Positions 1 through 34,477 of a stretch of DNA of 64,000 bases are shown here, in pieces. The first letter of the stretch is position 1. The number at the start of each line of letters is the position of its first letter. The notes beneath the pieces were generated by a model. It worked only from the letters and a program-made list of their open reading frames with translations, was not told where the DNA came from and ran no database searches. The position numbers and the translations under genes are program-made. Source of the stretch: Tricholomella constricta (taxonomy: Eukaryota; Basidiomycota; Agaricomycetes; Agaricales; Lyophyllaceae); the NCBI GenBank assembly GCA_013368375.1, contig JAACJP010000038.1:62001-126000 (forward strand). The letters are read 5' to 3'.

Positions 1-252
1 AATCCACCGCCCAACACTCCTACTCCCTCTGCGCCTGGTACACCAACTCTGCCCCCACCTCCGGTTACACGCAAGCGCAAGCATGTTGAAGGACAGACTA
101 GGCGAAAGAAATCAAAGCAGGATTTACTGCTTGCAGAGGCCGCAGACTTTGGTGCCAATACTAGGGGCAACCGCACACGCAATGGGACTACAACGCGAGC
201 CAAAACAAAGAAGTCCGCGGGGGTTGGCATCGGAAGATCAAAGCGCCGCTAG
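1..252 (+). CDS. C-terminus of a basic, proline-rich protein (partial)
   Basis: Frame 1 is open from the window edge to TAG at 250-252, giving 83 codons with no start in view. The first 25 residues are Pro/Thr-rich; the rest is Lys/Arg-rich with NLS-like clusters (RKRK, RRKKSK, GRSKRR at the very end). No domain is recognised. It may be the tail of the gene left of the minus-strand 604-aa gene in K1. A 3'UTR-like AT-rich stretch follows to about 360. It could be a fortuitous open frame, but its composition resembles a nuclear protein tail. Confidence 0.4.
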   Translation, partial: NPPPNTPTPSAPGTPTLPPPPVTRKRKHVEGQTRRKKSKQDLLLAEAADFGANTRGNRTRNGTTTRAKTKKSAGVGIGRSKRR

Positions 253-496
253 TCTTTTGCTTGTACTTGAATTCACATTTTACTTACTTGAGAAAATTCT
301 GATTTTGAAGAGCACTATTATTTTGTACATAGTACTTTGAATATATAAAACAATTTACTTCTTCTACTTGCTAATATTTGAAGAAGTGTTACAAGATATT
401 GGTAAGTTTGGTAAAAAAAAAGGATAAGGTCCGCGGGTTTGCAAAAAAAAAGATTGTCCACAGGGTCGCCAAAAAATCATGTCCGCGGGGTGCACA

Positions 497-2465
497 TCAC
501 TTTTTAGAGGGCCTATCACCACCACCCTCATCCGACGCCTTGCGCTTTTCACCTCGAGGGCTGGGAGGGGGGCTCAGGGTGGTGGGTGGTGGGGTGGTCA
601 GCCTTGGGGAGGGGGTTTTGGGGGCCGGCGGAGGACTTTGCGGATCCGCGGACTTGGCGGGGGTGGATGGTGCAGATGTCAGAGTTGACAAGCGGCTTGG
701 CCTGCCCAATGGAAAAGCACGCGGAGGGGCTGATGAAGCCATGGAATTGGCGGATGTTGGGAGGGGGGGCGGAGTTGTTTTGGGCGGAGGTGGGGATGTC
801 TTCCAGATGTCCGTTATTCCGAGAGCGACGGGGTCCGCGGCGTTGTCTGTGGCGAATGCTGCAGCCCATTCTGCAGGCACATCCTGCAACCCAGGTGTCT
901 GCGCAGGCGTCTCCGGGGGTGTCGACAGCCGGGTGTCAGCCTCAGGTGGCTCTGTGTGTGTTACCTTCTGCCCGGCTCCCCTTCTCTCAAGCCTTACCAA
1001 CCGCTTGCGGATCAGCCACAGCTCAGTCCCATGGTGCTCCCCCAACGCCGCATTGTCCATCCCTGCCTCCTTCACCACCTTGTTCTTCTCATGGAGCTCC
1101 TCCACCTCCAAATGGAGGAGCTCCAGATCCAAGGCCCTCTCCCTGTCACGCTTGAGGAGCTGCTTCACCCTGGCCTCCATGAGGCTCACGGTGGACCGCA
1201 ATGCAGCAAGCTCCGCGGACTCGGAGGGCGCGGACATGGCAGGGGCGGACGTTGCAGCGGCGCGCTCAGCGCGGGTCACTGCAATGGTGTTAACAATAGT
1301 GTGAACCAAAAAAGAAAAGACTTACTGGACGGGCCCGCGGCGTTGTCCTCCTCGCTTGGGACATACTCTGGGGTCAAGTTTCTTGCCCGCTTGCTGGGCT
1401 TCGACCATCCCGCGGAGTCGGACACCCCGAGCGCTGCTGCATGGATGCAGCTTTGCTTTGCATACTTGCAAGGCAAGCATGCAGTCGCCTTCGTTCCCCC
1501 CGGTTTCAAGCAGCCCAGCCCCTTCCGCAGGCATCGCGCACATGGGGGGTCGTAGAGCGACGCGTCCATGTCTTCATCATCCTCCCGGGCCAAGTCCTGA
1601 AATGAGCGGCCCATGTCCACAGTGGAGGGGAGGGGGTCCGCGGCACGGATACGGGGCCCTTGAATAAATGGTCAGTATGAACAATGAAAGAAAGAAGTGA
1701 ACTTACCGGGCTTTACACCCGCGGGCTCCGCTACTTCCCTGTCCTTCCCCTTTTCCTTCCTCCGCCTCTCCTTCTCTGCCCTCTCCAAGTCCACGGCCTT
1801 CTCCTTGGAGGCGCTCTTGCGGGCGGCCTTCTCCGCCCTCACCCTCTCCTTCTCCCTCTCTGCCCTTGCCCTCTCCTCCTCTTCCAGCGCCTTTCGCTCC
1901 CTCTCTGCCTCCTTCCTCTCCTTCTCTGCCCTTTTCTTGGCCTGCCTTTGGGCCTTCTCCTCCGCGGCCTTCTCCCTCAACTCCTTCTCCAACTCCTCCC
2001 TCTTTCTTCTCGCCAGCTCTGCCCTCGCCTCCTCCGCCGCGGCCTTTGCCTCCTCCGCGGCCCTTGCCTCCTCTGCGGCCCTTGCCTCCTCCGCTGCCCT
2101 TGCCTCCTCCGCAGCCCTTGCAGCATTGGCCGCGGATGCCCGCTCATGCACCCGCACAATTTTGCGGAGGCCCTTGAGCCGCTCATCGAAGTCCGTGGGG
2201 CCGTGCTGAATGCCCTGCAGTTCCCTGATAGTGGCGCCGAGGAGAGACGCGAGCCGGGCCTCGACCACCTTTGGGTCAGTGCTGGCCTTTGCCTCGGGCC
2301 AGACTTTTTTCTACATAAATAAAGTGAAGTCAGTAATCTGAAGGGAAGTCAAATAAAAATGAACCATACTGCTTTCTTGTAGACCGCGGCCAGGGCGGCA
2401 CGATCCCCGCTTGCGACCGCAATGGCAAGCTCCTGGTCAATAGATTTGAGGATGAGAATAGACAT
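497..2465 (-). CDS. Cargo protein with coiled coils and a six-cysteine cluster (four exons, 604 aa)
   Basis: Exons on the minus strand are 2465-2370, 2310-1707, 1658-1326 and 1278-497. All junctions are GT/AG with consistent phase, and the introns are 59, 48 and 47 nt (intron 2 has a TACTGAC branch site). The protein starts MSILILKSIDQE. It then has a long Ala/Glu/Arg/Lys coiled coil with AEEARA repeats (about 95-200), and a cysteine cluster C-X2-C-X6-C-X9-C-X2-C-X6-C near 260-290, like a fungal metal cluster. A second coiled coil (about 355-420) and a Pro/Ser/Thr-rich tail ending in KRK/PSKK follow. I do not recognise the family; a nuclear DNA-binding or regulatory role is inference. It diverges from the 160-aa gene across about 285 bp. 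CCGCGG lies in several exons. Confidence 0.7.
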
Positions 2466-2750
2466 GAAGCTAGTGCGCGGAGCTGGAGTGCGGGTTGGGG
2501 CGCGGGGTTGCGGATATGAGAGTGAGGAAAGAGGGGGGGAAAATTTTGAAAATTTAAACAACTATCACGTGACACCGGTGTCTAAATATAATCTTTTCTC
2601 TTATCAATCGTTCCTCATTGTTCTACCAGATTCTTATTTTGTCTTATCAATCATTCCTCATTGTTCTACCAGGTTCTTATCACACGTTGAAGGTCAAGGC
2701 CGTTCCAGACCATAAAGGTCGAGGCTCTTCTGGACCTTGTTCAGGCACTA

Positions 2751-3336
2751 ATGAACACCACACACATGAACACTGATAACTCATCAACCTCTGCGCAACC
2801 CAACCCCGCAGTCATACAGTCTGCACCGCTCCGCGGACATGTTGTCATCAAGTCTGGCGAGAAAGAGTACCTTGTTCCCCAATTTTTGGCCGCTTCTACG
2901 GAGCAGAAGCTGCTTACTGAGGCGCTAAAGGCAAAAGAGTTGAAGAAGGCTGAGGCAGATCCGGGGGTAAGCGGAACAATTGCTGATCATTGTCTTTCAT
3001 GGCTTACCTATTTGATCAGCCACATATGCACAAGGATGGGGGTTTCCAGGCTCTAGCCTCCGGTTCCGTTTTAGTCCCCGCGGACCCTGTAAATCGTTTA
3101 CTTGCACAGTTTTAACAAAACTAACAGTCATTTATTAGCCAATGACCCAGCGAGAGCTCCTTGGTCTCCACGCTGAGATCAAAGCATTTCAACAACTCCA
3201 CAACATATCATATGCCTCCGCAGCTCGTCAGCTTTACCTGGTGGAGGTTGCCAAACTTCACAGTGAGGAAACTGCTCTAAGTGCATTTCGTACCATGCGT
3301 GAAGAAATTGATGGGCCTCGGGAGGATGATTTATAA
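2751..3336 (+). CDS. Small cargo protein, unknown function (three exons, 160 aa)
   Basis: Exons 2751-2966, 3020-3088 and 3139-3336 join in phase 0, with GTAAGC...CAG and GTAAAT...TAG introns of 53 and 50 nt. The protein starts MNTTHMNTDNSS. It has a Lys/Glu/Ala helix ending exon 1, then a C-terminal half predicted helical (QRELLGLHAEIKAF, then AARQLYLVEVAKLH). No signal peptide, membrane segment or known motif is visible. It is transcribed away from the 604-aa gene; the spacer would be a shared promoter. Three clean splice junctions argue that it is real. Function unknown. Confidence 0.6.
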
Positions 3337-3574
3337 CAAGGGGGATTGGACTCATCATACTTATGTGCACCTCTGTCAGTGGTTTGAATATGAATATTCT
3401 TGCGGTAACGGAGCTCCGCGGACATATGGCTTGAAATGAGCCCCGCAGATTTGAAAATATAGCATCTAGGTGAGAATGTAACAACCCGCGGACATGTATT
3501 GTTCCGCAGACTTAGAGGCCCGCTGCCAGACACACTACATGTAGTATGCCCCACAGACAAGGATCTACATAGGT

Positions 3575-4230
3575 AAAAGATGACCCGCGGAGGTCCGCTG
3601 CCCCCCATATATGCCCCAAAAAAAGCAACCCGCGGAGGTCCGCAGAGGTAACCCCCTGTTAGCCCCCCACGCTGCCCCCATATATGCCCAAAAAGAAGTG
3701 ACCCGCGGAGGGCCGCAGAGTTGGGAACCCCCCACTAGCCCCCACCCTGCTTCCATATATGCCCGAAAGGCAACCCGCGGAGGTCCGCAGAGGTGGGCAA
3801 CCCACCCCGCTGCCCCCAGGCCCGCTGCAGTGCTGGGTGTGCCCCCAAAAAAAAAACCCGCGGAGGTCCGCAGAGGTGGGCAACCCCCCCGCTAGCCCCC
3901 CCATATATGCCCGAAAAGAAGCGACCCGCGGAGGTCCGCAGAGGTGAACAACCCCCCTGCTAGCCCCCCACCCCACTGCCCCCATATATACCCAAAAAGA
4001 AGCGACCCGCGGAGGTCCGTAGAGGTGAGCAACCCCCCCGCTAGCCCCCCACCCGCTGCACCCAGATATGCCCGAAAAGAAGCGACCCGCGGAGGTCCGC
4101 AGAGGTGAGCAACCCCCCCGCTAGCCCCCCACCCCGCTGCCCCCATATATACCCGAAAAGAAGCGACCCGCGGAGGTCCGCAGAGGTGGGCAACCCCCTG
4201 CTAGCACCCCGCTGCCCCCAGCACCATATA
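3575..4230 (+). repeat. GC-rich minisatellite near the right end of K1
   Basis: About nine imperfect units of roughly 70-85 bp, each built around CCGCGGAGGTCCGCAGAGGT, then a C-rich stretch with CCCCGCTAGCCCCC and CCATATATGCCC. Starts of the SacII core are near 3585, 3630, 3702, 3774, 3857, 3925, 4006, 4087 and 4167. The open frames through it are artefacts. The same array lies in the same place in K2 (33,775-34,330), so it belongs to the element. Confidence 0.9.
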
Positions 4231-4409
4231 GGCCGGCCCGCTGATACCATGCCAGGCAACTACATGTAGAGACCTCGCTGGTACTGTGCAACACGGCTAC
4301 ATGTAGTGGCCCCGCTGGTGCTCCAGCGGCCCCGCTGGTGCCGTCAATACGGCTACATGTATGGCCCCGCTGGACAGTGGGACATGCTACATTGTAGTGC
4401 CTGTATGTG
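4230..4409 (+). repeat. K1 subterminal palindromes and right terminus
   Basis: CTACATGTAG or close variants occur near 3531, 4257, 4292, 4352 and 4390, separated by CCCGCTGG and CCGTGCAACACGG-type stretches. K2 repeats the same series near 33,611-33,730 and 34,347-34,460. The spacing resembles subterminal transposase-binding repeats. Binding is inference. Confidence 0.65.
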
Positions 4410-4998: not shown

Positions 4999-4999
4999 G

Positions 5000-5599: not shown

Positions 5600-5830
5600 A
5601 CATCCACGGTACTGCTCACGGTACTGCACGGTACTGCTCACGGTACCGCACGGTATTGCACGGCACTGCACGGTACTGCACGGTACTGCACGGCACCTGC
5701 ACGGCACTGCATGGTACACACGGTATGCACGGCACCTGCATGGGGTATGGCATGGAATGACACTGCTCTTTGTATACCTCTTAATGTTCACACGGCACCT
5801 ACACGGACCACGACAGGGGCACACGGTACC
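5600..5830 (+). repeat. Degenerate tandem repeat of CACGGTACTG
   Basis: Ten-base units CACGGTACTG/CACGGCACTG and variants with CACGGCACCTG run from about 5605 to 5760 and fade by 5830. The expansion sits exactly where the Penelope-like ORF2 is lost. The frames through it are not genes. Confidence 0.85.
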
Positions 5831-7519: not shown

Positions 7520-7534
7520 GTAATGTCTAACATA

Positions 7535-10312: not shown

Positions 10313-10314
10313 GC

Positions 10315-11657: not shown

Positions 11658-11668
11658 TCGCACAACGG

Positions 11669-20147: not shown

Positions 20148-20149
20148 GC

Positions 20150-20160
20150 AGAATAGAGTG
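20150..20160 (+). other. Self-priming primer-binding site of chromovirus 2
   Basis: AGAATAGAGTG pairs with 20022-20032 through ten Watson-Crick pairs plus one G-U. The base that differs from chromovirus 1 in the RNA start (AGTCT versus ACTCT) is matched by the compensating base here (AGACT versus AGAGT). Confidence 0.75.
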
Positions 20161-20274
20161 ACTCTAGAAACCCGACGAAGCCGACCGATCCGCTTCCGCG
20201 CCGAAACACGCGTCTGCTACACGCGACCGTCCAACGCGCGCTCACTCCGATCGCCTGCCCAGTCCCGTTTCGAG

Positions 20275-21483
20275 ATGTCCGAATTTGGTGACATGTCGCA
20301 GCGACCGTTCTCTCCCTTCCTCACGACGGAGGAGCGGTTGGCGAATATGGAAGCCACAATTTCGGCTCTCTCTGCCTCCAATACCTCCAACTCGGCCTCT
20401 ATGGACCGCCTCTCCGCTCTTTTCGAAAAATTCATGTCAGGGACACCCCCCAATCCCACCCCCGCTGCTCCCGAAGCAGACACGACCCCCCCGCCGCCTG
20501 AGACGACCACCCCGCTGCCAGGCTCTCCGCGATCGGGATCGCACCACCTCCGACCGTCGCCCCCTCCCATTTACGACGGCGCCCGATCGGGCGGTCGCGC
20601 GTTCTTGAACGCCTGCAAGCTCTACTTCTCCTTGTGCGGGGGAAGTTTCGCCGACGACCACGCCCGAATAGTATGGGTGCTGTCGTACATGCAGCACGGG
20701 CGAGCCGCCGACTTCGTCAGTCGGGTGTTCCAGTTCGGAACCGCCAAAGACGTCTTTCCCGCCTGGAAGGACTTCGAAGACACCTTCCGTGGCGAGTTCT
20801 TCCTCTTCGACGAGGTCGCCGATGCCACGCTCATCCTGGAGTCGACGGCGTACTTCCAGAACGGTCAATCGATCGACGAGTACATTGACTCGTTCCGATC
20901 CCTGTGGGTCAAGGCGGGCTACCCAGATGGGCGTCACCTGGTCCTCAAATTCCGTCGGGGAATGGACCCGAAGCTCTCGAGGCGACTCGGAAGCATCACC
21001 ACGGGTCGCCCGCACGACGAGAAGATTGAGGAGTGGCTGAGGATCGCTCGTTCTCAAGATTTCATCATGAGGTCGGAGGACGACTTCCACCGTCGGATGG
21101 TCCCGACAAAGGCGCCCGACAGCCGCCCGCCCACCACTGCAGCCGCACGATGGGCGTTCGCTACCGCCCCCGCTCCCGCTCCCGCTCCCCCCGCCCCCCG
21201 CGCTCCTGCCGCACCAGCCCCCAGGCCGATCCCCCAGGGCATCCCAATGGACGTAGATCGGATGCGCGATCGAGTCGCGCCTGCCGACGACCACTGTTTT
21301 CGGTGCAAGAAAAAGGGTCACTACTCTCGTGACTGCCCTTTGCGCTGGGACGTGCGCCACATGCTCGATGATGAGCTGGAGGCGCTTATCATGGAACGTC
21401 TAGCTCGCAAGGACGCAGTCCCCCCCGACCCGACTCCATCGTCGGCCGACGCGACCACCTCCGACGCCGAGGAGGGTTTTTAA
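20275..21483 (+). CDS. gag: Gag (402 aa), chromovirus 2
   Basis: Starts MSEFGDMSQRPF. It has the same retrotrans_gag core as chromovirus 1 (FDEVADATLILESTAYFQNG), a Pro/Ala-rich linker and a CCHC knuckle CFRCKKKGHYSRDC near the C-terminus. It ends GGT-TTT-TAA, again a stop placed in a five-T run. RNA-binding capsid protein of the cytoplasmic particle. Confidence 0.95.
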   Translation: MSEFGDMSQRPFSPFLTTEERLANMEATISALSASNTSNSASMDRLSALFEKFMSGTPPNPTPAAPEADTTPPPPETTTPLPGSPRSGSHHLRPSPPPIYDGARSGGRAFLNACKLYFSLCGGSFADDHARIVWVLSYMQHGRAADFVSRVFQFGTAKDVFPAWKDFEDTFRGEFFLFDEVADATLILESTAYFQNGQSIDEYIDSFRSLWVKAGYPDGRHLVLKFRRGMDPKLSRRLGSITTGRPHDEKIEEWLRIARSQDFIMRSEDDFHRRMVPTKAPDSRPPTTAAARWAFATAPAPAPAPPAPRAPAAPAPRPIPQGIPMDVDRMRDRVAPADDHCFRCKKKGHYSRDCPLRWDVRHMLDDELEALIMERLARKDAVPPDPTPSSADATTSDAEEGF

Positions 21484-21494
21484 TTACACAACGG

Positions 21495-24400
21495 GTGGAA
21501 CGTACGCCCCCGTTGTCTAGTCGTAATCGGTTCGCTCCTTTATCCGTAGAATACGCCAATACACCTAATATTGCTGCTATTCCGACGAGTGAACCGACCG
21601 ACAAAGACGTACAAAACCCCTCCGACCCGACGACACCGATCGCAGTCGCAAAGCTGATCGCCCCGCCGCGTCGTGGCCTACCCCGCTGGGAAAAGCGACT
21701 CCCTAGTCGCTTCATCGCCGCTGCCTCCCCCTGCCCCAGATCCCTGTGGCTCAACGTCGAACTGGAGACCACCGACACCCAGGAGTCGCATGCCGTCACT
21801 GCCCTAGTGGACAGCGGAGCGACCGGCAGTTTTCTCAATGTCGCTTTCGTCGAGAAACACAAGCTCACGACCAAGGTGCTTAGTCGGCCATCCCCGGTTT
21901 ACAATGTGGACGGCACTCTCAACGAAGGCGGTTCGGTCTCTTGCATCGTAGAAGCTGTCTTGCGATACAACGGTCATACCGAACGAGCCGTCTTCGGGGT
22001 CACCCAGTTAGGCAAGCAAGACATGATCCTCGGGTTCAACTGGCTTAAAAACCATAACCCCGAGATCGACTGGGAGACCAAGGAGGTGAAGATGAGTCGC
22101 TGTCCGACGCAGTGCGGCACCTGCAAGGACGAGGTCAAAGCCGATCGGCGCGCACGCACCAAAGTGCGCGCAGCAATCCGCGCCTGTCGAGCCGACGGTA
22201 TACCGATGACTGAGCCCGACCTGCGAGCCCCGACCAACCCGTATGTTGAGGACGACTCTGATGAGGAGGAGTTCCTCCCCTACACCCCGATCCTGGAGGA
22301 ACCTGACCCAGAGTCTGACGACTTCCTGGTGGAAACCTTCCTGAGTGGCGATCGCATCTTCGCGACCGCGATCCATCCGACTCCGACCGCCGAACATATT
22401 CGGGCCAGCCAAACGACATCGCAGCGACTTGCGGAAGCGCACGCTGCTAACTCCGTGCCCAGAACTTTCCGCGACGCAGTACCGACCCACCTCCACGACT
22501 TTGAAGATGTCTTCTCCAAAGTCGCATTCGATGAGCTTCCAGAGCGCAAGCAATGGGACCATGCCATCGAACTGGAGCCGGGCGCGTCGCCGACTGGCAC
22601 GAAGGTCTACCCGCTCTCACCGGCAGAACAGGTCGAACTCGACGCGTTCCTCAAGGAGAACCTCGAGACAGGTCGCATCCGACCGTCCAAGTCGCCCATG
22701 GCGTCGCCGGTCTTCTTCATCAAGAAGAAGGACGGGTCGCTCCGACTGGTTCAGGACTATCGGACGCTCAATGCGCTCACGGTGAAGAACCGATACCCGC
22801 TGCCCCTCATTAGCGAACTGGTGAATAACCTTCGCGGCGCGCGGGACTTCACCAAGTTGGACGTCCGATGGGGGTACAACAACGTACGGATCAAGGAAGG
22901 CGACGAGTGGAAGGCAGCGTTTCGGACGAATCGCGGCCTCTTCGAGCCGCTCGTCATGTTCTTCGGCCTCACGAACAGCCCCGCCACATTTCAGACCATG
23001 ATGAATGATATCTTCCGCGATCTGATCGCTGAAGGTGTTGTTTGCGTGTACCTCGATGACATCTTGATTTATACAAAGACGCTAGAGGAACACCGTCGGG
23101 TCACGCGACTGGTACTGGACCGACTCCGCGAACATCAGCTGTTCTTAAAGCCCGAGAAATGCGAATTTGAGCAGACTAAGATCGAGTATCTCGGGCTGAT
23201 CATTTCGCAAGGGCAAGCGGAAATGGATCCGGTTAAAGTCGCTGGAGTGTTGGAATGGCCGGCGCCGAAGAACAAGAAGGAGGTGCAAGCGTTCCTAGGC
23301 TTCACCAATTTCTACCGACGGTTCATCCAGGACTTCTCGCACCACGCCCGACCCCTGTTCGATCTGACAGGCAAGGACGTCGCCTGGCGATGGGGAGAGT
23401 CGGAGCAGTCGGCCTTTGCCCTTTTGAAGTCTGCGATCACATCGGGGCCAGTCCTCATGTTCCCCGACGACGATCGACCGTACCGCATCGAAGCCGACTC
23501 GTCCGACTTCGCAACGGGCGCAGTCCTGTCGCAAGAGTCGCCGTCCGATGGCAAGTGGCACCCGGTCGCGTTCTACTCGAAGAGCTTGAACGCCGTCGAG
23601 CGGAACTACGAGATCCATGACAAAGAGATGCTGGCGATCATCCGGTCTCTGGAGGAATGGCGACACTTTGTAGAAGGCGCAAAGCACAAGGTGGAGATCT
23701 GGACCGACCACAAGAACCTTGAGTACTTCCTCACCGCGAAGAAACTCAATCGGCGTCAAGCCCGATGGTCGCTTTACCTCGCTAACTTCGACTTCGCCCT
23801 CCACCACCGTCCTGGCCGTAGCATGGGCAAACCCGACGCGTTATCGCGTCGCCCCGACCATGGCGACGGAAGCGCCGACAACGCCAACATCGTGCTGCTC
23901 AAACCAGAATTCTTCGCCGTTCGTGCAACTGAAGGCCTTGCACTGGTCGGAGAGGAGGATGATGTGCTGAAAGCGATCCGCAAGGGCAATCGCGATGGGG
24001 CTCAGGAGGATGCGGTCGCGAAAGCGGCACAACTGGTCAAAGCATCCAAGATCGCCGGCCGCTCCCTTCGCTTTGGCGAGTGGGGAGAGGAAGGCGGTCT
24101 GCTCACGTTCCGTGGACGGATCTATGTCCCGAACATCCCAGACCTTCGCCGATGCATTGTGGAGCAGCACCACGACTCCAAGGTCGCCGGTCACCCCGGT
24201 CGCTGGAAGACGCTCGAACTGGTGTCGCGCAACTACTGGTGGCCCCAGATGTCGCGCTTCATCGGTTCGTACACCAGCACCTGTGACATGTGTCTGCGCA
24301 CGAAACCTCGCCGCCAACTCCCCGTCGGACAGCTGCAGCCGCTTCCCATCCCCGAAGGCCGATGGAATGTCGTATCGGTCGACTTCATCACCGAACTTCC

Positions 24401-25514
24401 AGAGTCCAACGGCCACGACGCGATCATGAATGTCGTGGATTCGGTCGGAAAGCGCGCGCACTTCATCGCGTCGCACACAACTTGTTCGGCCCTGGGAGCT
24501 GCGAACCTCTACCGTCGCCACGTCTGGAAGCTGCACGGTCTCCCCGACGCATTCGTCTCCGATCGAGGTCCACAGTTCGTCACCGAGTTCACGCGCGAAC
24601 TGTACAGACTTCTGGGTATCAAGCTGTCGGCCTCGACGGCGTACCACCCACAGACCGACGGACAGACGGAGCGTGTCAACCAGGAACTGGAACAGTTCTT
24701 GCGAGTCTTCTGCAATGAGCGCCAGAACGATTGGGAGGATCTCCTGCCCGACGCCGAATTCAGTTACAACAACCATGTACATTCGGCGATGCAGCAGACC
24801 CCCTTCCTGCTTGACACTGGTCGGCATCCGCGCATGGGCTTTGAGCCGCGTCGGGGTGTTTCCAAGAACGAGTCAGCCGACGAGTTCGTGGAGCGCATGA
24901 AGGAAGCACAGGAGGAAGCCAAGGCAGCGCTTTCAAAGGCCAAAGACGACATGGAGCGGTATTACAACCAGCGACACGCCCCAATGCCCGACTACCAGCC
25001 TGGCGACAAGGTATACTTGGACGCGACTGACATTTCTACGACCCGACCGTCTAAGAAGTTGTCGCATCGCTACCTTGGCCCTTTCGTCGTGCAAAGGCGA
25101 GTCGGCCCGCTTGCATACCGCCTCCTGCTGCCTCAGTCCATGAAGCGCATCCACCCAGTCTTCCACGTCGTGAAGCTCATCCCTGCCGTTGCTGATCCGA
25201 TCGAAGGTCGTCGATCCGATCCCCCTCCGCCCCCCGACATAATCGACGACGAACCCCATTACGAAGTTGAAAAGATCCTCGATAGCCGAACCTTCCGCAA
25301 AAAACTACAGTACAAGGTCCTGTGGAAGGGCTATGGTTACGAAGAAGCTTCTTGGGAACCTCGCGAAAATGTCGCCGCCCCCGATCTGGTACGAAAGTTC
25401 CACCGTGACAACCCTGACGCTGCCCGCCACATTCGTGGCATATTCACGTTATCCCCGGCCGTCTTCGCCACCGCGGCCCCGCACCGAGTCGTTGCGATTC
25501 AAAAGGGGGGGTGA
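21495..25514 (+). CDS. pol: Pol polyprotein with chromodomain, chromovirus 2
   Basis: 1339 codons without interruption, in the -1 frame relative to gag and without an early ATG. Protease ALVDSGATGSF, RT VYLDDILIYT, RNase H, HHCC and DDE integrase and chromodomain (HYEVEKILDSR...WEPRENV) occur in the same order as in chromovirus 1. The TGA adjoins the 3' LTR after a G-run. It should be functional by inspection. Confidence 0.97.
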   Translation: MERTPPLSSRNRFAPLSVEYANTPNIAAIPTSEPTDKDVQNPSDPTTPIAVAKLIAPPRRGLPRWEKRLPSRFIAAASPCPRSLWLNVELETTDTQESHAVTALVDSGATGSFLNVAFVEKHKLTTKVLSRPSPVYNVDGTLNEGGSVSCIVEAVLRYNGHTERAVFGVTQLGKQDMILGFNWLKNHNPEIDWETKEVKMSRCPTQCGTCKDEVKADRRARTKVRAAIRACRADGIPMTEPDLRAPTNPYVEDDSDEEEFLPYTPILEEPDPESDDFLVETFLSGDRIFATAIHPTPTAEHIRASQTTSQRLAEAHAANSVPRTFRDAVPTHLHDFEDVFSKVAFDELPERKQWDHAIELEPGASPTGTKVYPLSPAEQVELDAFLKENLETGRIRPSKSPMASPVFFIKKKDGSLRLVQDYRTLNALTVKNRYPLPLISELVNNLRGARDFTKLDVRWGYNNVRIKEGDEWKAAFRTNRGLFEPLVMFFGLTNSPATFQTMMNDIFRDLIAEGVVCVYLDDILIYTKTLEEHRRVTRLVLDRLREHQLFLKPEKCEFEQTKIEYLGLIISQGQAEMDPVKVAGVLEWPAPKNKKEVQAFLGFTNFYRRFIQDFSHHARPLFDLTGKDVAWRWGESEQSAFALLKSAITSGPVLMFPDDDRPYRIEADSSDFATGAVLSQESPSDGKWHPVAFYSKSLNAVERNYEIHDKEMLAIIRSLEEWRHFVEGAKHKVEIWTDHKNLEYFLTAKKLNRRQARWSLYLANFDFALHHRPGRSMGKPDALSRRPDHGDGSADNANIVLLKPEFFAVRATEGLALVGEEDDVLKAIRKGNRDGAQEDAVAKAAQLVKASKIAGRSLRFGEWGEEGGLLTFRGRIYVPNIPDLRRCIVEQHHDSKVAGHPGRWKTLELVSRNYWWPQMSRFIGSYTSTCDMCLRTKPRRQLPVGQLQPLPIPEGRWNVVSVDFITELPESNGHDAIMNVVDSVGKRAHFIASHTTCSALGAANLYRRHVWKLHGLPDAFVSDRGPQFVTEFTRELYRLLGIKLSASTAYHPQTDGQTERVNQELEQFLRVFCNERQNDWEDLLPDAEFSYNNHVHSAMQQTPFLLDTGRHPRMGFEPRRGVSKNESADEFVERMKEAQEEAKAALSKAKDDMERYYNQRHAPMPDYQPGDKVYLDATDISTTRPSKKLSHRYLGPFVVQRRVGPLAYRLLLPQSMKRIHPVFHVVKLIPAVADPIEGRRSDPPPPPDIIDDEPHYEVEKILDSRTFRKKLQYKVLWKGYGYEEASWEPRENVAAPDLVRKFHRDNPDAARHIRGIFTLSPAVFATAAPHRVVAIQKGG

Positions 25515-26004
25515 TGTTAGGGGAACGCCCGTTCACGCCCTCCGACGCTCACCGACTGTCCCCCGACACGTGCGATCGCTCCCGACCGATCGCGCCCCCG
25601 ACCCCGACGCTCCGACCCAAGCGTCGGTGTACATACTTATACATCCCTGTCCCTACCTCCCCTTCCAGCGCGCGCCCGATCCCGACGTCCGACATCCCGA
25701 CGTCGGTCGCCCGACCTCGTGCCCGCACCCTGAGCCACGAGGATCGGACAGCGTCGGGAACGTGTACATACACGCGCCGCTGCTCATCCGTTATCATTTA
25801 CGTACCATACACCCCAGAGAGCCGGCCCTCACGTATCTTACTCGTATATAGTCATCCTCCTGACATGGGGGAATCCTTTACTCTATTCTCATTGGATTCC
25901 CCTCTGCCAGGTAGGTCTACTTACGCTCTCTCTACCGTACATAATATAACATTGGATTCCCCTCTGCCAGCACGACTAAGCTCTGCGCTGAGGTCGCCCT
26001 AACA
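25515..26004 (+). repeat. 3' LTR of chromovirus 2
   Basis: 490 bp, starting TGTTAGGGG directly after the pol stop and ending CCTAACA. It keeps CpG at two positions mutated in the 5' copy (GATCGCTC, GCGTCGGG). Confidence 0.97.
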
Positions 26005-26020
26005 GTAGGTCTGGACGTGG

Positions 26021-27020
26021 CTAAATTACTGTATCAGTCTGGTGCAGTGGGTCTGGTGCAATAGATTCTTGGAGGGAAAGGACATAGTCCATAAGCTTTC
26101 TTTTGAAGTCCTTTACCATGTGCGGAAAGGTATCAATGAAACCTTTGCTGATCACTCCTGCATTTGCCGCAATGCTGTCATGACTACTCCGCGGTGAACA
26201 TCAGCACAAGTCCGCAGAGTCGATGAACAACTCACGCCCGAACATTCAGTTGCCCATCTTGGCCTTTCCATACCACAAAGGTAAGGGACAGCATGCCCAT
26301 CTCTCGCCACCTGTTGGCATCCTCATTCTCCACTCGTTGAAAGCCCCGCTTATCCGCATTCCTGAGATAAGAAGGATCAACTCCGAGATGTCCGCGGACC
26401 CCGCGGAGTTACTCACTTGCGCTGCTCCTCAGGGGGAAAGCCCTTGGTGCTCCACTCACGGGCAGTGGCCTCTGCCTCCTGGAGTTGTTGCGGAGTGAGT
26501 TTGTTCATCACCCGTGCCAAAGCCTTGTTGCGTTGCTGGAAGGCCGCGGTGGGAGATTCATCGACCTCCTCCAGTATCTCTTTCAACTCTTCGGTAATCA
26601 AGCCGTGCATTGTCCGATTGACTACCTGGCGCGCAGTAACCTTCAAATTACCCGATGACTGGTTATATGATGGCTAGGGCCTCCAGTTGTTCCTCACCCA
26701 ATCTGCCAGTTTCTGTATGCTGATCAGTGTGATGATACAGAGATACACACTCTAGCCTGACGGACCGTGGTAGCTGATGCGGACTTCTTGTCGGTCTTCG
26801 GCTCTGTTCCCTTTGCCTTCCAGAAGTTAAAAATATCAACCAAGACTTTGTCCCTAAAAATGGCCGCCCTTTTTGCCTTGTCCGACTCTGACCGGTACTC
26901 CTCTCGGTACTTGTTGAGGACCGCGCGCTCGTCAGCCGGGTAACGGGGCTCCTTGCTTGTCTTCTTCAGGGCCCCAGCGGCATGTGGGACTGTTTCTGGT
27001 GTAAAAATATTTTCGGACAT
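26021..27020 (-). pseudogene. Accessory gene of K2, unknown function, one in-frame stop
   Basis: From ATG 27020 the product starts MSENIFTPETVPHAAG. Exons are about 27020-26757, 26712-26417, 26362-26236 and roughly 26147-26021. The first intron would use a GC donor. An in-frame TAG at 26674-26676 (after ADWVRNNWRP) interrupts exon 2. The protein is Lys/Glu-rich with helical stretches (LARVMNKLTPQQLQEAEATA) and a block WREMGMLSLTFVVWKGQDG. I recall similar proteins near fungal transposons, but know no function. The acceptor of the last exon is uncertain. Confidence 0.5.
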
Positions 27021-27274
27021 GATGGAGCTCCGTAAAGAAGATTTCCTATTTGGGTCAAAAAGTGTTGAACTTCACGCTTGACAGTTGTCCCACAGTACCC
27101 CATTTGGCAAGGAAGTTTCCAGTTTGGGTAATATGAGGCACGGGTACAATCGATGGCCCCGATTGTGAGTGCAGCTGACCTTTGCACCATGAGGACATGT
27201 CCGAGAGTAATCAGTGATACATCAGTAGACAGGTTCTGATTTTTCCACCAAATCAGATCTCACCCTTACCCACC

Positions 27275-30200
27275 ATGTTGCGTGCAGTAAAGCGCACACG
27301 TCGCAAGAAGGATGAAGTCCTTCAGGAAAGTTCTCGTTCACATGCCATGGATGTCGAGACAACAGTCAGGCATACCCAGAGGGGTGACATTGTGGAATCC
27401 AGGAGTGTCCCTTTGCGCAAGAGGTCACCGGACCTTGTTACATCTGCCCCTCAGGGTGTGCAAACCCATGTCCAACCCTTTGAGCATTCGGACATTCACT
27501 CAACGGAGCTGGATGACACTGATGAGGTTGCCCCCAAACGGGCCAAGGTGAATTGTTCTTTGATGTATTGTGTACATGTAACTGAATTAAAGCACAGACA
27601 CAAGCTGATTACCTTCAAGAGTTTGTGAACCATGTTCCAGAGCTGTTGGAGGGGCTCCTTGGGAGAGAGTACATTGAGAATCAAACTCAATGTTCTGATT
27701 GTCCCAAGGGCAACTATGGACGTTGGCGTTGCCGAGATTGTCTCAGTGACAGGATACTCTGCCGGGGTTGCATGCGGACAACTCACAGGGACAATCCTCT
27801 GCATCGCATTGAGTTCTGGACGGGTCAATACTTCCAGACAGCTCAGCTGCAGGAGGTTGGTACCTACTTGCTGGTCCCTCACTCCTCCGGGAAAGCACTC
27901 TGTGATACGCTACAGCTGCAACAGGAGCAATTGGAGAATTACCAGGTGGAATACGACGATAAAGAACAGAAGAACCACCGCACAGAGCAGCAAAATGACC
28001 CCACGGGTCGACATGCCAACTCCGCAGATGCCGCGGACGTGACTGAGCAGACTTCCTATGATGCAGAGGACAATGATTACATGGCGCGCTTGAGCCGTGC
28101 TTATGGTCAACAGCCAGAATTTCATCCAATTGCTGAGGCAGGGTCTACTCTGGACACAGTTGAAGTCGAAGTGGACGAGGAAGATGACGATGACACTGGC
28201 CTTAATGATGACCTTCCGACGAGAATGCCACGGCACGATGCTTTCAACAATCGTTATGTGCGCCTTGTACATGTCAATGGAATTCACTACATTCCACTTG
28301 TCTACTGTTCATGCCGCGGAGTCCGAGAGGTCAATACAGACCTGATGCACAAGCGATTGGTGCCTGCAAGCTTCACACGGTACAATACGCTCTTTACCAC
28401 TGCAGTCCTTGATGACTATCGCCTTGCAAACCTGGAATGTAAGGCATCTGCATTTCAGTATTGGCACAAGCTCAGCCGGACTACGGCTGCAGCAACAAGC
28501 TCCGCGGACATCGACAACTTTTATCGCGAACTCCGCCGGCTCTCGCGTTCATGGAGATGGCTCAAGAAGCTCAAATGGGGTGGTTTTGGCAGCAATAACA
28601 GAGATCCCATGCAGACCACCGCAGGGGAGCTTGCCATCTTTTGTCCAACATGTCCGCAGCCAGGTGTGAATCTCCCCGCGGGGTGGTCCGCAGACCCGAA
28701 TAAGTGAGTGCATTAAGTGACGACTGATCATTGTTATTGACATTACATGCAGAAAAGTATACATGAGGTCTTTTGTGGCAGACGGCAACTTCAAAGCGGA
28801 TCATGTTCGCCAAAAGAACAATGCAATGGACGTTTGGCTGTCGGAAGGGTCAGGTATGATGGCTAACCGGGCCAATTATAATGAGTTCCTGAAGGAAGCA
28901 TTCAATGTGATGACAGTGAGTCAAGTCCGATTACTTCCGCGGCATAGCCCGTGGGGTTCATCAACCCCGCGGAGTTCTGTAATAACGTCTATTTTAGAAA
29001 GCCCCTTGCGAGAATCAGTTCCGCGCTGTTGAGCAGGCAATGCTTGTGTCCAAAGCCTGTGATGTTAAAGGAATTGTAGCCATTGCATGTGCGCGGCATG
29101 GCTGTTTTGCCCCCAACAGCCTGTCGGACCTCCACGCGGGTGAGCAACAAAAGAATGTGGACTGGGCATTCCTCCAGGCGCTTAAAACAACAAATGTGGA
29201 AGACATCGACCAGGTGTTATTGATCTATGATATTGCCTGCCAATACATGGTACACTTTCTAAAGCGCATCGGCCACCTACTTTCCCCAGGAATGACTATT
29301 GCTCAGGCCATCGGACTACTCCATGTTCATGGTCACAAAGATGATTGCTTTGACCGCTTTGCAACTTCATTCATTCCGGGGGCTGCTATAGTTGCGGGTG
29401 AAATTCTGGAGAGTTTGTGGGCCGTGCTGAACACTGTGTCACCAATGACCAGAACCGCAACGTTGGCACACCGAGCGGAGATCCTCGACGATCATATGAA
29501 TGATTCTAACTGGAAGAAACTCCTGCAGATGCGTTAGTAAAATTTCATCCATTCCGTTACAATAACTGACCCTGTCCGCGGCCGCGGAGTAGCGGTCACA
29601 TTGTGTCAGACATACGAAAAGGCGACGGAGATGTTGGAGACTGCCCAAGGATATTTCAAAGGAGTTGCCCAGGGAATAAGCCGCACACAAACCGCAATTT
29701 GGGAGGCGGAGATCCAGGAGGCCGAGCAGAGGAGGGTTCATGATGTCAAGGCTATGGACATCCTCAAAGCGCGCACCGCGGACATCGGGCAGCCAGGAGA
29801 TTCCAATGGACCTGTGGAGCACGCAACAGCTGAAGAGGAGTGGATACAATCAGGCCTTGATATCGAGGAGCGCCAGTAAGACATTTTATCTCTATTTGTC
29901 TTCCGGAGCTGAACAGTTTCCATCTAGAATTGGCCTTCAAGACAAAGTCCGCCAACTTGTCCGTGAACCGCGGGAAGATGTCCGCAAAGCCGTCGAAACT
30001 GAAAGACAAAGCCTACGTGCACAAATTGATGTGTTCACGTCAAAACAGCCGAGCATAAATTTCATTCCTTTGGCCTCCGCGGAGGATGTGCCAGGGAACG
30101 TCAAAGCCTTTGATAACCTAGACGAGAACCCCGCGGACCTGCCACCCTCCGGAGATGCCGCGGTTCCGGCACAGTCAGGCCGTCCTGCACCTGCAGACGG

Positions 30201-30981
30201 ACCCCTACCACCAGAGCAGACACCTATTTGCCTGCCATCCTCAGCTGGGGAAACTGAGTCACATCTGGCTAAACTCGAGCTTGCATTGCGCAAGGTTCAA
30301 GCGGAGCGTCATCTTCAGAACCTCCGTAATGCAATTGCGGAGAAATCATTTTTGTACTCACACGTCATCCGAGTTGCTCCGCGGAAGGGTGTGATGACAC
30401 GTGCGCGGGGGAACATCACCACCCTCAATTGCACAATCACCACCCTTTGTCGGGTGTATGACAAATGCAGAGCAAAGCTCGCCTGTCTGGGTGCGGATGA
30501 AGGCACACTGGAAAGGTACAAAATTCTCGACAAGAAGCATGTCAAATCGAGCACCGCCATACTGGATCCCAACACACCGGGCTCAACTGATATCCGAAGT
30601 ACCAGTCTTTCCTGGATTTGGCAAATACCTGGTCAAGCGACAGATAGTCCGGAGGCTGTGCTGGAGTGTATGTCCTTTGGCGTCAAGTCCGCGGAGTTGT
30701 TACTGACATGATACCAATAGTCCAACGTGTTCATTTCTTGAGGGCAAGGGCACAAAAGGATCGATGGACAGAAGAATTCACTCTTGTTCAATATGAAATG
30801 ACTTGGACCACCCGATACTTCCTTCATCAGGCCCAGATCTGGATAGAGCGCGGTGCGGAGGCCGCGGCTGCAGGACAACTGCATATGCAGGGCGGAAGAC
30901 AGCCATGTGGAGGGAACTTGCTTGGTTGGCGGAGCAACGATTTAAAACTGTCAATACATCATATGTAACATTGCTTCAATA
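27275..30981 (+). CDS. KDZ transposase with CxC2 cysteine cluster (seven exons, about 1,120 aa, 3' frameshift)
   Basis: Exons 27275-27547, 27598-28703, 28753-28915, 28998-29532, 29593-29875, 29928-30667 and 30721 to about 30981 join in frame. The CxC2 cluster (QCSDCPKG...WRCRDC...LCRGCM) lies near residues 120-165. Three acidic residues fit the KDZ RNase H fold: FVADGNFKAD (about 470), LLIYDIACQY (about 592) and GEILESLWA (about 652). CARHGCFAPNS and GLLHVHGHKDDC are family hallmarks. A +1 shift is needed near 30,885 to reach the usual C-terminus (TAMWRELAWLAEQRF), so the copy may be slightly damaged. It would cut and rejoin element ends; the cysteine cluster probably helps bind DNA. Confidence 0.85.
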
Positions 30982-31345
30982 GAATGGACCATGCAGTTTT
31001 GTGTTTGCGGGGTGATAAGAATGTCCGCGGACATGAATTGTTAAATGTTGCCCAATGTCCGCAGATGTTGCCCTCCGCGGAGCCCCATAGCCTTCCCAAT
31101 TATGGTGGTGTCTCGGACAACATGATGTAACAACACCACGAACATCATAGCTTATACTGGGGATACCTTTGATTTTGAGTTTGCTTGGAGGCTAGAGGAT
31201 TACATTGATTTTGGGTTTCCTTTAAAAGCTTTGCTGTGATAGTCTGTGCAGTGATAAGAGATCCGACAGGTGTCCCCGCTGTCCACCTGATTATCAAAAC
31301 GTCCGCAAAGGCAACATCCGCGGACATCTGTAAGCAGCACGGGTC

Positions 31346-33264
31346 ATGTTTGCGGACATGGTTGTCACATGCCCTGGTCACATGACAGTGCGAAAGTCAC
31401 CATCAGTCCATGTGGCTGTGGCAACAGCTTTTTTCCTCTCGCTATCTGATCCCTTATCGCACCTCATCCAAAGCAAATCAATGACTTCCTCCGCGCTGCA
31501 CTGGATTGACTCTGAGAGCTTTTTGCTTCCGATGACGGGCAGGGCCGCAGTTCACCTCCAGGAGGTGCTTTACTACTGCGAATCCCGCTTACGTGTTGCC
31601 TTGGTGAAGTTTGCAGGTGTGGATAATGCGGAGGTCCGGGCTTCAATGCAAGTGCGCTTGGCCGCGGAGCTGGTACGTTGCTGACTTGGCCATTTTCTGG
31701 ATCATGACTTATTTCTCTACAGAACTTTGCAATGATATTCGTCGGCGCTGCAACAAGCATGATGATATCGTGCGAAATTCCCAATATCCTTCGGCTTCTC
31801 GCTTCCCATTTCCATGGGCAGCTTGAGCCTCACAGCCCACTCGTCCTTTCTGATTCACTGATTCTCGCGTTGGACGGCTCCATTCCGCTCGAGCACCCCG
31901 CGGCCGCTGTCTCTGAGTATGCCTGTGACTGGTGGCACGAGCACGAAGATAATGAGCTCCGTGAACCACTCAGTCATGACACGTTGGAGGAATGCCTTGT
32001 CCTTCACCGCTTTCAGCGGCAGCAAGTGCCACCACTCTGGGTTCCACAGACGAGAGCAACTCCACAAGTCCTGCAACAGTGTCGCACCCATGTCCAGGGC
32101 TTCGAAACAATTTATGAAGCTCAAGCCTATCAGACCGCCCGCCGTGCCGCGGGATTCCACATGATTTTTGAGGCAGCAAGGCAACAGGCCGCGGGGGCCG
32201 CGGGGGATGACAAAGAAATGAGCCCCCATGAGCTCTTCAGAATCCTTCATCCAGAGGCAATGGAGGGACCAATCGCATCGGAATTTGGGGAGGAGCTGCC
32301 ATCAGGGACGTACAAGGGAGAGGAATCAGATGAGGAGTTGGGCGTGAGCTCTGACAGCTCTGAGAGGTATGACCCACTCGGAACTGACATCCACCAGCCC
32401 AGGGAGCTGCTGCGTCACGAGATTCCTGATCACTTCCTCAGGCCGCCGCTCCGAAATAAAGATGTGGAGTATAAAAGCTACTACCAACGGCCCTTGGCAG
32501 GGCATGACAAAGGATCTGACAGTGACCCCGCGGAGGCGGACCCCGCGGACATTCAAAGTAAGAACAGTGATTCTTGTTATTTGAACTGCATTCAAACCTT
32601 TTGCAAGGCCAACCAGAATATGTTCCTTCTGAGGATGAGGACGAGCCCATGGCCGCGGATGTGGACCCCGCGGACATTCAAAGTAAGAACAGTGATTCTT
32701 GTCATTTGAACTGCATTCAACCTTTTGCAAGGCCAACCTGCACCCCGTTACGTATCCCCAGAATATGTTCCTTCTGAGAATGAGGATTCTGAGGATGAGG
32801 ACGAGCCCATGGGTGAGTTATATTGCATTTGCTTATACTTGCATATAGTTACCTTTCACCATTTTGTAGGCCAATCACATGAAGACCCCGATATGGTGTT
32901 CTCTGATGAGGACAGCCCCGCGGAGGACGCCCCTGCTGTCCAAGAACCCGATATTGAGTTTTCCGACAAGGACAGCTCTGCAGAGGACACCCCCGCTCTC
33001 CTCAAAGATCCAGATATTGTGTTTTTTGACGAAGACAGCCCTGCGGAGCAACAAGACATGGAAGTGCTTTCCCTTTCCGATGACTCAGGTGAGGAAGAGT
33101 TTAGGGTCAGGAGGAGACACAGGAGACCACCCGTTGAAATGCTTGAGGGCTTATTACGGTTTTCAGATGGTGAAATCAATGAGGAGCTTGCGGTTCAAGT
33201 ACCCCGCGGACAATACACTGCCGCCTCCTTTGCTCACATTCCGTCCAACATTCTTGATGATTAG
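31346..33264 (+). CDS. Acidic repeat-tailed cargo protein of K2 (five exons, about 570 aa)
   Basis: Exons 31346-31672, 31723-32557, 32608-32682, 32732-32812 and 32870-33264 are phase-consistent. The start could instead be the later ATG of MTSSALHWIDSE (about 31,481). The first 300 residues are probably helical with no motif I recognise. The last third is very acidic, with three repeats of the type DPD-I/M-VF-x-DEDSPAED, then RVRRRHRRPP and an acidic end. Introns 2 and 3 are near-identical copies made by a tandem duplication. A nuclear or chromatin-binding role is only suggested by charge. Confidence 0.65.
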
Positions 33265-33774
33265 GGGTAGCTTTATCTTGATGTCTTTTTTCCTTTTGCT
33301 TTGTGATAATGAATATGTTGCCTTGTGATAATAAAAATATACCAATACAGATACACCATACTTGTAAATGAAACATGGAGGGGGAACAATTGTGTCCCTT
33401 GTCTATACATTAAAAGCATCCAGAGCCCGCGGACAATTATGACCATATCCACAGACATTTATGGTCTGGTCTTCTACAGCACCATGGAGGCCCGTTGCAG
33501 CAGCGGGTTTGCCCGCGGACATGGGCAATCCCCGCGAGCCCCTTGCTGCCCTTTGTAGGACCAGATAGGCCCGCTGCAGCCCCAGCGGGGCCACTGGTAC
33601 CGTCCCCGACGGTTACATGTAGAGACCCTGCTGGTGCGGTGCCAGATGGTGACATGTAGTGGCCCCGCATCAGCCCCGCTGATGCCGTGCCAGACAGCTA
33701 CATGTAGTGATCCCGCTGGCACGTTGGACATGCTACATGGAGTCTGCCCCACAGACAAGGATTCATGGAGGTAA
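33265..33774. repeat. K2 spacer with subterminal palindromes
   Basis: No gene. Contains ACATGTAG palindromes near 33,611, 33,649 and 33,698, CCCGCTG-type blocks, and a stretch (GCCCCACAGACAAGGAT) also present in K1 near 3,550. Homology with K1 begins around here. Confidence 0.6.
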
Positions 33775-34330
33775 AAGACGACCCGCGGAGGTCCACAGAG
33801 GTGGGCAACCCCCCGCTAGCACCCCGCTCCCATATATGCCCGAAAAAAGGTAAGCCGCGGAGGTCCGCAGAGGTGGGCAACCCACCCCGCTGCCTCCAGG
33901 CCCGCTGCAGTGCTGGGTGTGCCCCCAAAGAAACAACCCGCGGAGGTCCGCAGAGGTGGGCAACCCACCCCGCTGCCCCCAGGCCCGCTGCAGTGCTGGG
34001 TGTGCCCCCAAAAAAACAACCCGCGGAGGTCCGCAGAGGTGGGCAACCCCCCGCTAGCCCTCCCATTTATGCCCAAAAAAAGGTAACCCGCAGAGGTCCG
34101 CAGAGGTGGGCAACCCCCCGCTAGCCCCCCACCCTGCCCCCACAGGCCCGCTGCAGTGCTGGGTGTGCCCCCAAAAAAACAACCCACGGAGGTCCGCAGA
34201 GGTGGGCAACCCCCCGCTAGCCCCCCCATATATGCCTGAAAAGAAGCGACCCGCGGAGGTCCGCAGAGGTGGGCAACCCCCTGCTAGCCCCCACCCCGCT
34301 GCCCCCACAGCACCATATAGGCTGGCCCGC
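33775..34330 (+). repeat. GC-rich minisatellite near the right end of K2
   Basis: Seven imperfect units of about 70-95 bp with the same core as K1 (CCGCGGAGGTCCGCAGAGGTGG), at about 33,781, 33,855, 33,938, 34,020, 34,087, 34,183 and 34,250. Two units carry CpG-type changes in the core (CCGCAG, CCACGG). Confidence 0.9.
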
Positions 34331-34477
34331 TGATACCATGCCAGGCAACTACATGTAGAGACCTCGCTGGTACCGTGCAACACGGCTACATGTAGTGGCC
34401 CGCTGGTGCCGTCAATACGGCTACATGTATGGCCCCGCTGGACAGTGGGACACGCTACATTGTAGTGCCCCTACCTG
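34330..34477 (+). repeat. K2 right terminus
   Basis: CTACATGTAG at about 34,347 and 34,385, CTACATGTAT at 34,419 and CTACATTGTAG at 34,455, then GTGCCCCTACCTG to the boundary. Nearly identical to K1 4,240-4,409. Confidence 0.75.

Follow-up and report, generated by a model that had tools for sequence, protein, structure and literature searches.

The 64,000-nucleotide stretch of Tricholomella constricta DNA analysed here (contig JAACJP010000038.1 of assembly GCA_013368375.1, positions 62,001 to 126,000; hereafter the window) contains the two halves of a 13.8-kb KDZ transposon, and both halves show the palindrome CCGCGG at high density. Judging from the sequence, CCGCGG is probably the site of the element's own DNA-binding protein, the predicted Zn2Cys6 (zinc-cluster) product of an accessory gene, gene A. 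All genomic comparisons are within one genome.

Density and distribution of CCGCGG

Between positions 1 and 4,350 the window shows 28 CCGCGG sites (6.44/kb) and between 26,005 and 34,400 it shows 41 (4.88/kb), numbers that agree to the unit with those counted by eye in a preliminary description of this DNA, which also gave three sites for the chromovirus at 9,843-16,164, all found here by their positions. The remaining 51 kb, approximately, contain 12 sites (2, 5 and 5 in three stretches; 0.17-0.35/kb), where dinucleotide shuffles give an expectation of 18.5. In 200 dinucleotide-preserving shuffles, the mean is 1.44 sites (maximum 6) for the first dense region and 1.60 (maximum 5) for the second, and the control named beforehand in the preliminary description therefore leaves the observed density far above that of shuffled sequence. 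The whole genome has 12,158 sites in 44.09 Mb (0.276/kb). An uninterrupted copy of the element on contig C51, here called E, contains 77 sites (5.59/kb), approximately 20-fold above the genome: about 47 are in coding exons (5.2/kb, with exon limits set by eye and approximate), 15 are in the terminal arrays (1.55 kb, the highest density) and 15 are in other non-coding DNA (3.27 kb). Without the arrays, E has 62 sites in 12.2 kb (5.1/kb). This distribution bears out the earlier statement that sites lie in exons, introns and spacers alike; of the intron sites named there, the second is at 28,967 and not at 28,964.

It is extremely improbable that base composition, codon use or the spread of tandem repeats made these words without function. 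Such an origin would fit the 15 sites of E located in arrays, as well as the 33 of its 46 framed coding sites that share one frame, NCC GCG GNN, encoding X-Ala-(Asp/Glu/Gly/Ala/Val). However, the shuffles speak against it, as do the similar density in exons and in other DNA and the value of 0.3/kb in the chromovirus stretch of the window. Among sequence variants of the palindrome, CCGCAG occurs 15 times outside the arrays and 14 times inside them, and CCACGG eight times outside and once inside. Since 14 of the 29 CCGCAG words are part of the repeated unit of the arrays, CpG deamination, proposed earlier as their source, explains only part of them, and TCCGCAGA as a deamination product only was rejected.

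KDZ copies that carry the palindrome

The copies examined were chosen and are not a random sample: they are eight of the approximately 30 KDZ copies nearest in score to K2, the right half of the window element. Five of five copies of clade I are enriched in CCGCGG: the element of the window, the copy on C51 (L037 and L055), L032, L036 and L039, the last three with 56, 57 and 35 sites per 10 kb, respectively. Together with the 77 sites of E, they uphold the view that the motif is maintained along the whole element and in its other copies. Within approximately 3.5 kb around the KDZ domain, copies of clade I show 13-21 CCGCGG. All 30 fragments taken from other KDZ copies, many of which are nearly identical members of one family, show 0-3 CCGCGG and 0-5 of a second word, CCGGRT. 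Because none of these 30 fragments is enriched, and three relatives carry the other word, the idea that CCGCGG is a property of all KDZ elements, which the preliminary description had implied, is ruled out.

Two non-autonomous elements on C1, with like termini and target site duplications (TSDs), contain 27 CCGCGG in 4.25 kb and 44 in 5.2 kb, located mainly towards the ends; neither shows a stop-free frame longer than 246 amino acids. L040, a remnant-like piece with an adjoining homolog of the zinc exon (71%), has six sites in 3.0 kb, which is below the clade, and it is left outside the clade counts. L032 and L036 are approximately 93% identical to K2 in the transposase half and only 60-68% identical in the right part, which suggests, at the sequence level, recombination with a lineage carrying a different gene C.

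A second word in related elements

Compared with the clade I transposase, the relatives L033, L035 and L038 show 76-78% identity for the KDZ exon and 49-52% for the CxC2 exon, and they contain only 2-4 CCGCGG. They show instead 46 (L033), 75 (L035) and 34 (L038) CCGGRT per 10 kb, where 100 shuffles give means of 12.2-13.3 and maxima of 22-25, and the segments of approximately 3.5 kb round their KDZ domains contain 17-26 of these words; E has two CCGGRT in 13.8 kb. Both words, as read from the sequence, contain CGG triplets, and the pairs that these form differ in orientation and spacing. The everted pair CCG-n0-CGG occurs 77 times in E, with 14 for the next everted spacing, and the direct pair CGG-N3-CGG occurs 54 times in L035, 19 in L033 and 25 in L038. 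In the aligned transposase exons, one of the ten CCGCGG of K2 is shared with L035 and none of the ten with L033; L035 and L033 have eight and 14 CCGGRT of their own, of which none of the eight and none of the 14 are shared with K2. The presence of new words where the old ones are missing is a further point against words made without function.

A binder other than the zinc-cluster protein is conceivable: the transposase itself, through its CxC2 or KDZ region, might bind the sites for recognition of the ends, which is quite unlikely. The transposase diverged along with the motif, as the identities of its CxC2 and KDZ exons show, the arrays are the densest part of E and the sites of the non-autonomous elements are mainly near the ends. 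Nevertheless, 62 of the 77 sites are outside the arrays, beyond what recognition of ends should need, the KDZ exon keeps its 76-78% identity despite the replacement of the motif, and pairs of CGG triplets are the form of zinc-cluster sites. Such sites are described, in the parts of the source consulted, as inverted, everted or direct triplet pairs whose fixed spacing largely sets specificity (PMC5415576). Because the motif, a CGG triplet pair, fits this type of domain, the zinc-cluster protein is the predicted binder of CCGCGG, quite probably the true one.

The zinc-cluster protein

Zn2Cys6 domains have the spacing pattern C-x2-C-x6-C-x(5-16)-C-x2-C-x(6-9)-C. This spacing is found in gene A of the window (CARCLRKGLGCLKPGGTKATACLPCKYAKQSC) and of L055, both with an x10 linker, and in L056, with an x8 linker. 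L056, a 1.2-kb segment of C31, lies 6 kb upstream of a KDZ copy with a score similar to those of L033 and L035; it encodes CRRCHLKGIRCVRPATGYVCASCQGLKVHC and is 29% identical to the gene A protein over the aligned stretch. Downstream of the gene A cluster, a segment resembles, by eye, a coiled coil.

The predicted model of the gene A domain (predicted local distance difference test, pLDDT, 60) shows helices at 40-45 and 61-65 and that of L056 (pLDDT 74) at 11-16 and 30-35, each helix at a C-x2-C. All 19 Foldseek matches of the first model (best E 0.29) and all 15 of the second (best E 0.55) are Zn2Cys6 proteins by title or by their known class, and the matches of the two models include Gal4, Ppr1, Put3, Leu3, Hap1, Pho7 and AlcR. 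A 50-residue piece of L056 matches PF00172 with 17.5 bits, below the cut-off of 21 (E 0.0046, profile positions 3-36 of 39). The gene A protein thus appears, by its spacing and Zn2Cys6-like predicted fold, to be of the Gal4 type, and the earlier suggestion of the six-cysteine protein as candidate binder gains from both. Sequence searches returned little: in a set of 5.8 billion proteins, residues 225-430 of gene A gave 7,994 scored candidates, none at E <= 0.01, and the zinc exon gave 10 candidates, again none; among solved structures, the zinc exon matched nothing but protein Tat, twice and weakly (E 0.56 and 0.76), which was attributed to chance.

Zinc-cluster genes and TET/JBP near KDZ copies

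The genome-wide comparison is based on approximately 150 listed of 157 KDZ matches, of which 136 were used and merged to 112 copies; the 14 weak ones left out are 13 further pieces of included copies and one further place, C7:1296295. The zinc exon of gene A gives 45 genomic matches at E <= 1, many of them upstream of KDZ copies, and 38 of the 45 were used (five were taken from the L056 search instead and two second pieces were left out). From the L056 search, 16 of 34 matches were used, leaving out 11 clade I places, two second pieces and five weak ones. A zinc-cluster homolog lies upstream of 33 of the 112 copies, on the same strand and within 15 kb: 25 at 5.1-6.0 kb, two at 4.1 and 6.6 kb and six at 10.5-12.9 kb. 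These pairings include the loci of L032, L036, L037, L039, L033 and L035. Of the six most distant pairings, that of C61:25594 is probably due to chance, since its nearly identical counterpart on C30 lacks a neighbour of this kind. Other KDZ copies (C70, C72, C45, C11:118k and C33:100k) are accompanied by a third zinc-cluster group, 34-36% identical to gene A, and further groups stand at 44% and 50% (C27, C61, C64; C7:672k, C65, C53).

The preliminary description had related the palindrome to TET/JBP oxygenases, and for clade I this link was rejected. The genome shows 23 TET/JBP matches and none is inside the element; the one nearest to E (C51:134063-134356) scores below the cut-off and lies approximately 200 bp beyond the left end of E. 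Of the 112 merged copies, 14 have a TET/JBP match no more than 12 kb away, and in the single clade I case among them the match is outside the element. Zinc-cluster homologs only are near 32 copies, TET/JBP only near 13 and both near one, whose TET/JBP match is weak and outside the element; approximately four copies with both would be expected if the two were independent, which copies of a family are not.

Retention of sites and CpG state

K2 and L036 are 93.0% identical over 5 kb, and L036 keeps 20 of the 20 CCGCGG of K2 (in reverse, 20 of 27), compared with 38 of 52 for other hexamers that contain two CpGs (Fisher test, 0.0076) and 530 of 882 for those that contain one (7e-5). L032 also keeps 20 of the 20 sites of K2, and L036 keeps 18 of the 19 of L039. 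Motif CpGs of K2 are kept in L036 in 40 of 40 cases and other CpGs in 162 of 199 (p 0.0012); in L039 the numbers are 34 of 40 and 144 of 199, respectively. In the right part, where three copies have diverged to 60-68% identity, these copies contain 21, 26 and 27 sites (those of the arrays among them), of which 9-14 are shared pairwise, and at the sequence level site density is held while many positions change.

The element has a CpG observed/expected ratio of 0.70, or 0.60 without the motif, and a TG+CA ratio of 1.23, compared with 1.22-1.24 and 0.90, respectively, in the chromoviruses; the CpG ratio is 1.03 in 34,478-64,000. The neighbouring stretch L034 is between (0.87 and 1.18). CpG depletion with raised TG+CA would fit previously methylated DNA, and it is not unique to the element. 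It is very unlikely that the palindrome is a target of DNA methylation or modification rather than a protein site. The depletion of the element and the two CpGs of each CCGCGG would suit such a target, but motif CpGs are better kept than others from K2 to L036, the depletion is also present in L034 and the relatives use a different word. Moreover, the element frames show no methyltransferase in the part scanned with Pfam and the element contains no TET/JBP match.

Proposed function

The gene A protein, once made, would dimerise and bind CCGCGG along its own element and the non-autonomous derivatives. By loose analogy with VANC on VANDAL transposons, the bound protein could keep the elements open or unmethylated, and that this coating counters silencing is put forward with slightly less than even confidence. 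The terminal arrays may have a second use in the pairing of ends. It is unlikely that the sites serve mainly transposition, and no likelier that they serve mainly transcription.

A transcriptional role would mean that the zinc-cluster protein activates the genes of the element itself, as in the self-regulation of Pdr3. In the accounts consulted in part, Pdr1/Pdr3 of yeast bind TCCGCGGA (PMC11111045) and the promoter of PDR3 holds two such elements (PMC3997011); CCGCGG, an everted CCG-CGG pair without spacer, is the core of that site. The likeness to the Pdr1/Pdr3 pleiotropic drug response element TCCGCGGA is thus in the palindrome core and the type of domain. However, Pdr1/Pdr3 have few sites, in host promoters, and the KDZ element has dozens within a transposon: approximately 77 along its length, about 47 of them in coding exons, where only a few promoter sites would be expected. 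A mainly transcriptional reading is for these reasons rather unlikely.

Several observations weigh against CCGCGG as the site of the gene A protein. In some comparisons sites are lost: K2 shows 20 of 27 sites of L036, 20 of 27 of L032 and 15 of 19 of L039, and L039 shows 15 of 20 of K2 and 18 of 27 of L032. Over the transposase half, L032 and L036 show 94.8% likeness and are therefore not independent. In the relatives, the direct pair with a spacing of nine is also raised (36 in L035, 19 in L033 and 18 in L038), so that a spacing of three is not the sole one. L056 alone has no significant excess of CCGGRT (four, compared with a shuffle mean of 2.1 and a maximum of nine, in only 1.2 kb), and L038 has the word but no zinc-cluster homolog upstream was found in genome searches with the gene A exon and L056. 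The zinc-cluster homologs of L033 and L035 were located upstream by match only (39% and 52% identity to L056). Two zinc-cluster versions read in sequence and two motifs are one contrast, and the transposase has, by its sequence, diverged between the clades as well. Unpaired zinc-cluster places amount to 13 of 38 in the gene A exon set and to eight of 16 in the L056 set, the window's own gene being among the unpaired because of an inversion. PF00172 scores 10.8 bits over 14 residues of the window exon, below the 21-bit cut-off, and 12.3 bits on the 248-residue frame of L056, where Nup88 is slightly higher, and in a Pfam scan neither the spliced gene A protein nor a 56-residue piece of the window exon matches Zn_clus. 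Finally, the confidence of the models is modest (pLDDT 60 and 74) and no Foldseek match has E <= 0.001.

A wider scenario is tentative and rather more doubtful than probable: fungal KDZ elements would have evolved a VANC-like system in which a Zn2Cys6 protein coats the element, coding exons included, and relieves silencing by family; with a change of pair geometry from everted n0 to direct n3, the new word would have replaced the old one throughout the element while the transposase core stayed 76-78% identical, and the zinc-cluster and TET/JBP sets would be alternative answers to DNA methylation.

Structure of the element in the window

E is located on L055 and L037 (E:3312-17084, 13,773 bp), is flanked by the 7-bp TSD AACTTTG and shows 5'-CA..TG-3' ends (by eye) and inverted terminal repeats of approximately 130 bp. 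The halves K1 (reversed, 97.8% identical) and K2 (98.7%) had been taken for separate K elements, which is ruled out: they are one KDZ transposon, since E contains both joined and their outer ends share one TSD in opposite orientation. The window element (TSD TCCGAGA) and the two non-autonomous elements (CGTGGCT and ACTCGAC) likewise show 7-bp TSDs and 5'-CA..TG-3' ends by eye. Both inner ends of the halves abut chromovirus long terminal repeats (LTRs) with the 5-bp TSD GTAGG. The partner chromovirus, L031:2719-9065, is inverted relative to that at 19658-26004 of the window, and the TSD pairs GTAGG and GTGCT (AGCAC on the other strand) are exchanged between the two copies. Because of this exchange, the sequence is read as a chromovirus inserted into the KDZ element, after which recombination between two inverted chromoviruses flipped the intervening 20 kb, approximately.

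The element has the KDZ transposase core PF18758 and the associated CxC domain PF18803. Its inverted ends of approximately 130 bp set it apart from two Kyakuja families of Laccaria, described as having none, and it is filed as KDZ and not as Kyakuja. The two frames of gene C scanned show no Pfam match above the cut-off. The other features are listed in Table 1. Positions 9843-16164 contain a second chromovirus family, whose LTR shares 84% identity with that of the first over 278 bp and whose CpG ratio of 1.24 shows none of the depletion seen in the KDZ elements, and at 5610-5800, right of the K1 half, there is a degenerate short tandem repeat resembling CACGGTACTG.

Table 1. Coordinates of the KDZ element, its genes and the adjoining chromovirus (window positions unless a locus is named).
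Feature	Position	Strand	Basis or remark
K1, left half of KDZ element, inverted	1..4409	-	97.8% to E:3501-7580; TSD TCTCGGA (reverse complement TCCGAGA) after 4409
Inner 0.93 kb of K1	L031:9066-10000		left of window
K2, right half with transposase	26005..34477	+	98.7% to E:8511-16651; TSD TCCGAGA after 34477
Terminal inverted repeat, outer end of left half	4276..4409	-	94.8% over 134 bp to end of non-autonomous element on C1
Terminal inverted repeat, outer end of right half	34344..34477	+	limit approximate
Terminal array, units of ~80 bp, most with CCCGCGGAGGTCCGCAGAGG	3575..4210	-	repeat analysis (3898-4210) and sequence
Terminal array, like units of ~80 bp, other end	33780..34310	+	repeat analysis (33855-34310) and sequence
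Chromovirus copy at break of KDZ element	19658..26004	+	5-bp TSD GTAGG at inner junction
Gene A, accessory protein	497..2465	-	exons ~2465-2370, 2310-1707, 1658-1326, 1278-497; splice sites by eye
Zn2Cys6-like cluster of gene A, C-x2-C-x6-C-x10-C-x2-C-x6-C	1447..1542	-	sequence
Transposase exon with CxC2 (PF18803)	27586..28704	+	E 9e-18
Transposase exon with KDZ core (PF18758)	28998..29534	+	E 6.4e-36
Open frame with further transposase exon	29680..30708	+	limits approximate; 39-43% to co-located frames in L033, L035 and L038
Gene C, predicted acidic protein, several exons	31484..33265	+	limits by eye
Gene B, small predicted protein	2754..3336	+	limits by eye
Gene D, 3' end, basic C-terminus	1..252	+	rest left of window and in K2

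Comparison with known systems

The TnpA protein of En/Spm is encoded by its element and has many subterminal binding sites, which are limited to the ends of the element. The KDZ element shares the many sites at its ends and differs in that its sites run along the whole length.

Among KDZ elements, Kyakuja of Laccaria shows, in the part of the account consulted, a KDZ transposase, 7-bp TSDs and 5'-CA..TG-3' termini, as here, and two of its families are without terminal inverted repeats (PMC12730594). Compared with Kyakuja elements with TET/JBP, the present element has no TET/JBP match inside; its ends are inverted repeats of approximately 130 bp, and it carries both a zinc-cluster gene and a motif that saturates it; a word search of the same paper gives neither 'zinc' nor 'CCGCGG'. 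KDZ elements of Cryptococcus are alike in having a transposase whose CxC domain is predicted to chelate zinc, and in terminal inverted repeats of 139-241 bp, but they have CxC1 and TSDs of 4-8 bp, whereas clade I has CxC2 and a 7-bp TSD; the sections of that account consulted mention neither a zinc-cluster gene nor a saturating motif (PMC12810828). In the open-licence literature, no report joining CCGCGG, transposons and basidiomycetes was found, which is weak evidence of absence; among the papers listed, titles and beginnings of abstracts gave nothing relevant on transposon-encoded Zn2Cys6 proteins and their sites, and the KDZ and Kyakuja papers, as far as consulted, gave no such motif or zinc-cluster gene.

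If the proposed role is true, transposons would have acquired sequence-specific self-recognition a second time and independently, here in a fungus and through the DNA-binding domain best understood in fungi, and the element would offer a testable case of a protein and dozens of sites changing specificity together. From the geometry of zinc-cluster pairs, a clear prediction follows for every family, and the exons that carry the motif would naturally record how selection on DNA sites stands against selection on the protein. A possible reason why only some KDZ elements carry TET/JBP would also follow.

The nearest known system is VANC of Arabidopsis, which, in the sections consulted, binds a dense family-specific motif and lowers the methylation of whole VANDAL elements (PMC5735166). 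In both systems a protein encoded by the element is linked with a short motif that is dense within the family and rare outside it; the motifs lie partly in tandem repeats, and relatives of the element have different ones. As in VANDAL, clade I and its relatives thus each present a dense motif specific to the family, which differs from one to the other. For VANC, binding and loss of methylation are demonstrated; the KDZ counterpart is proposed from sequence. The VANC domains are DUF1985 and DUF287, in a plant host, and neither was found in the spliced gene A protein in a Pfam scan; here the domain is of the Zn2Cys6 type, in a KDZ transposon of a fungus. VANC motifs are mainly non-coding (PMC5735166), whereas the sites of the KDZ element run through coding exons, and it is this occurrence in exons that sets the element apart from VANC.

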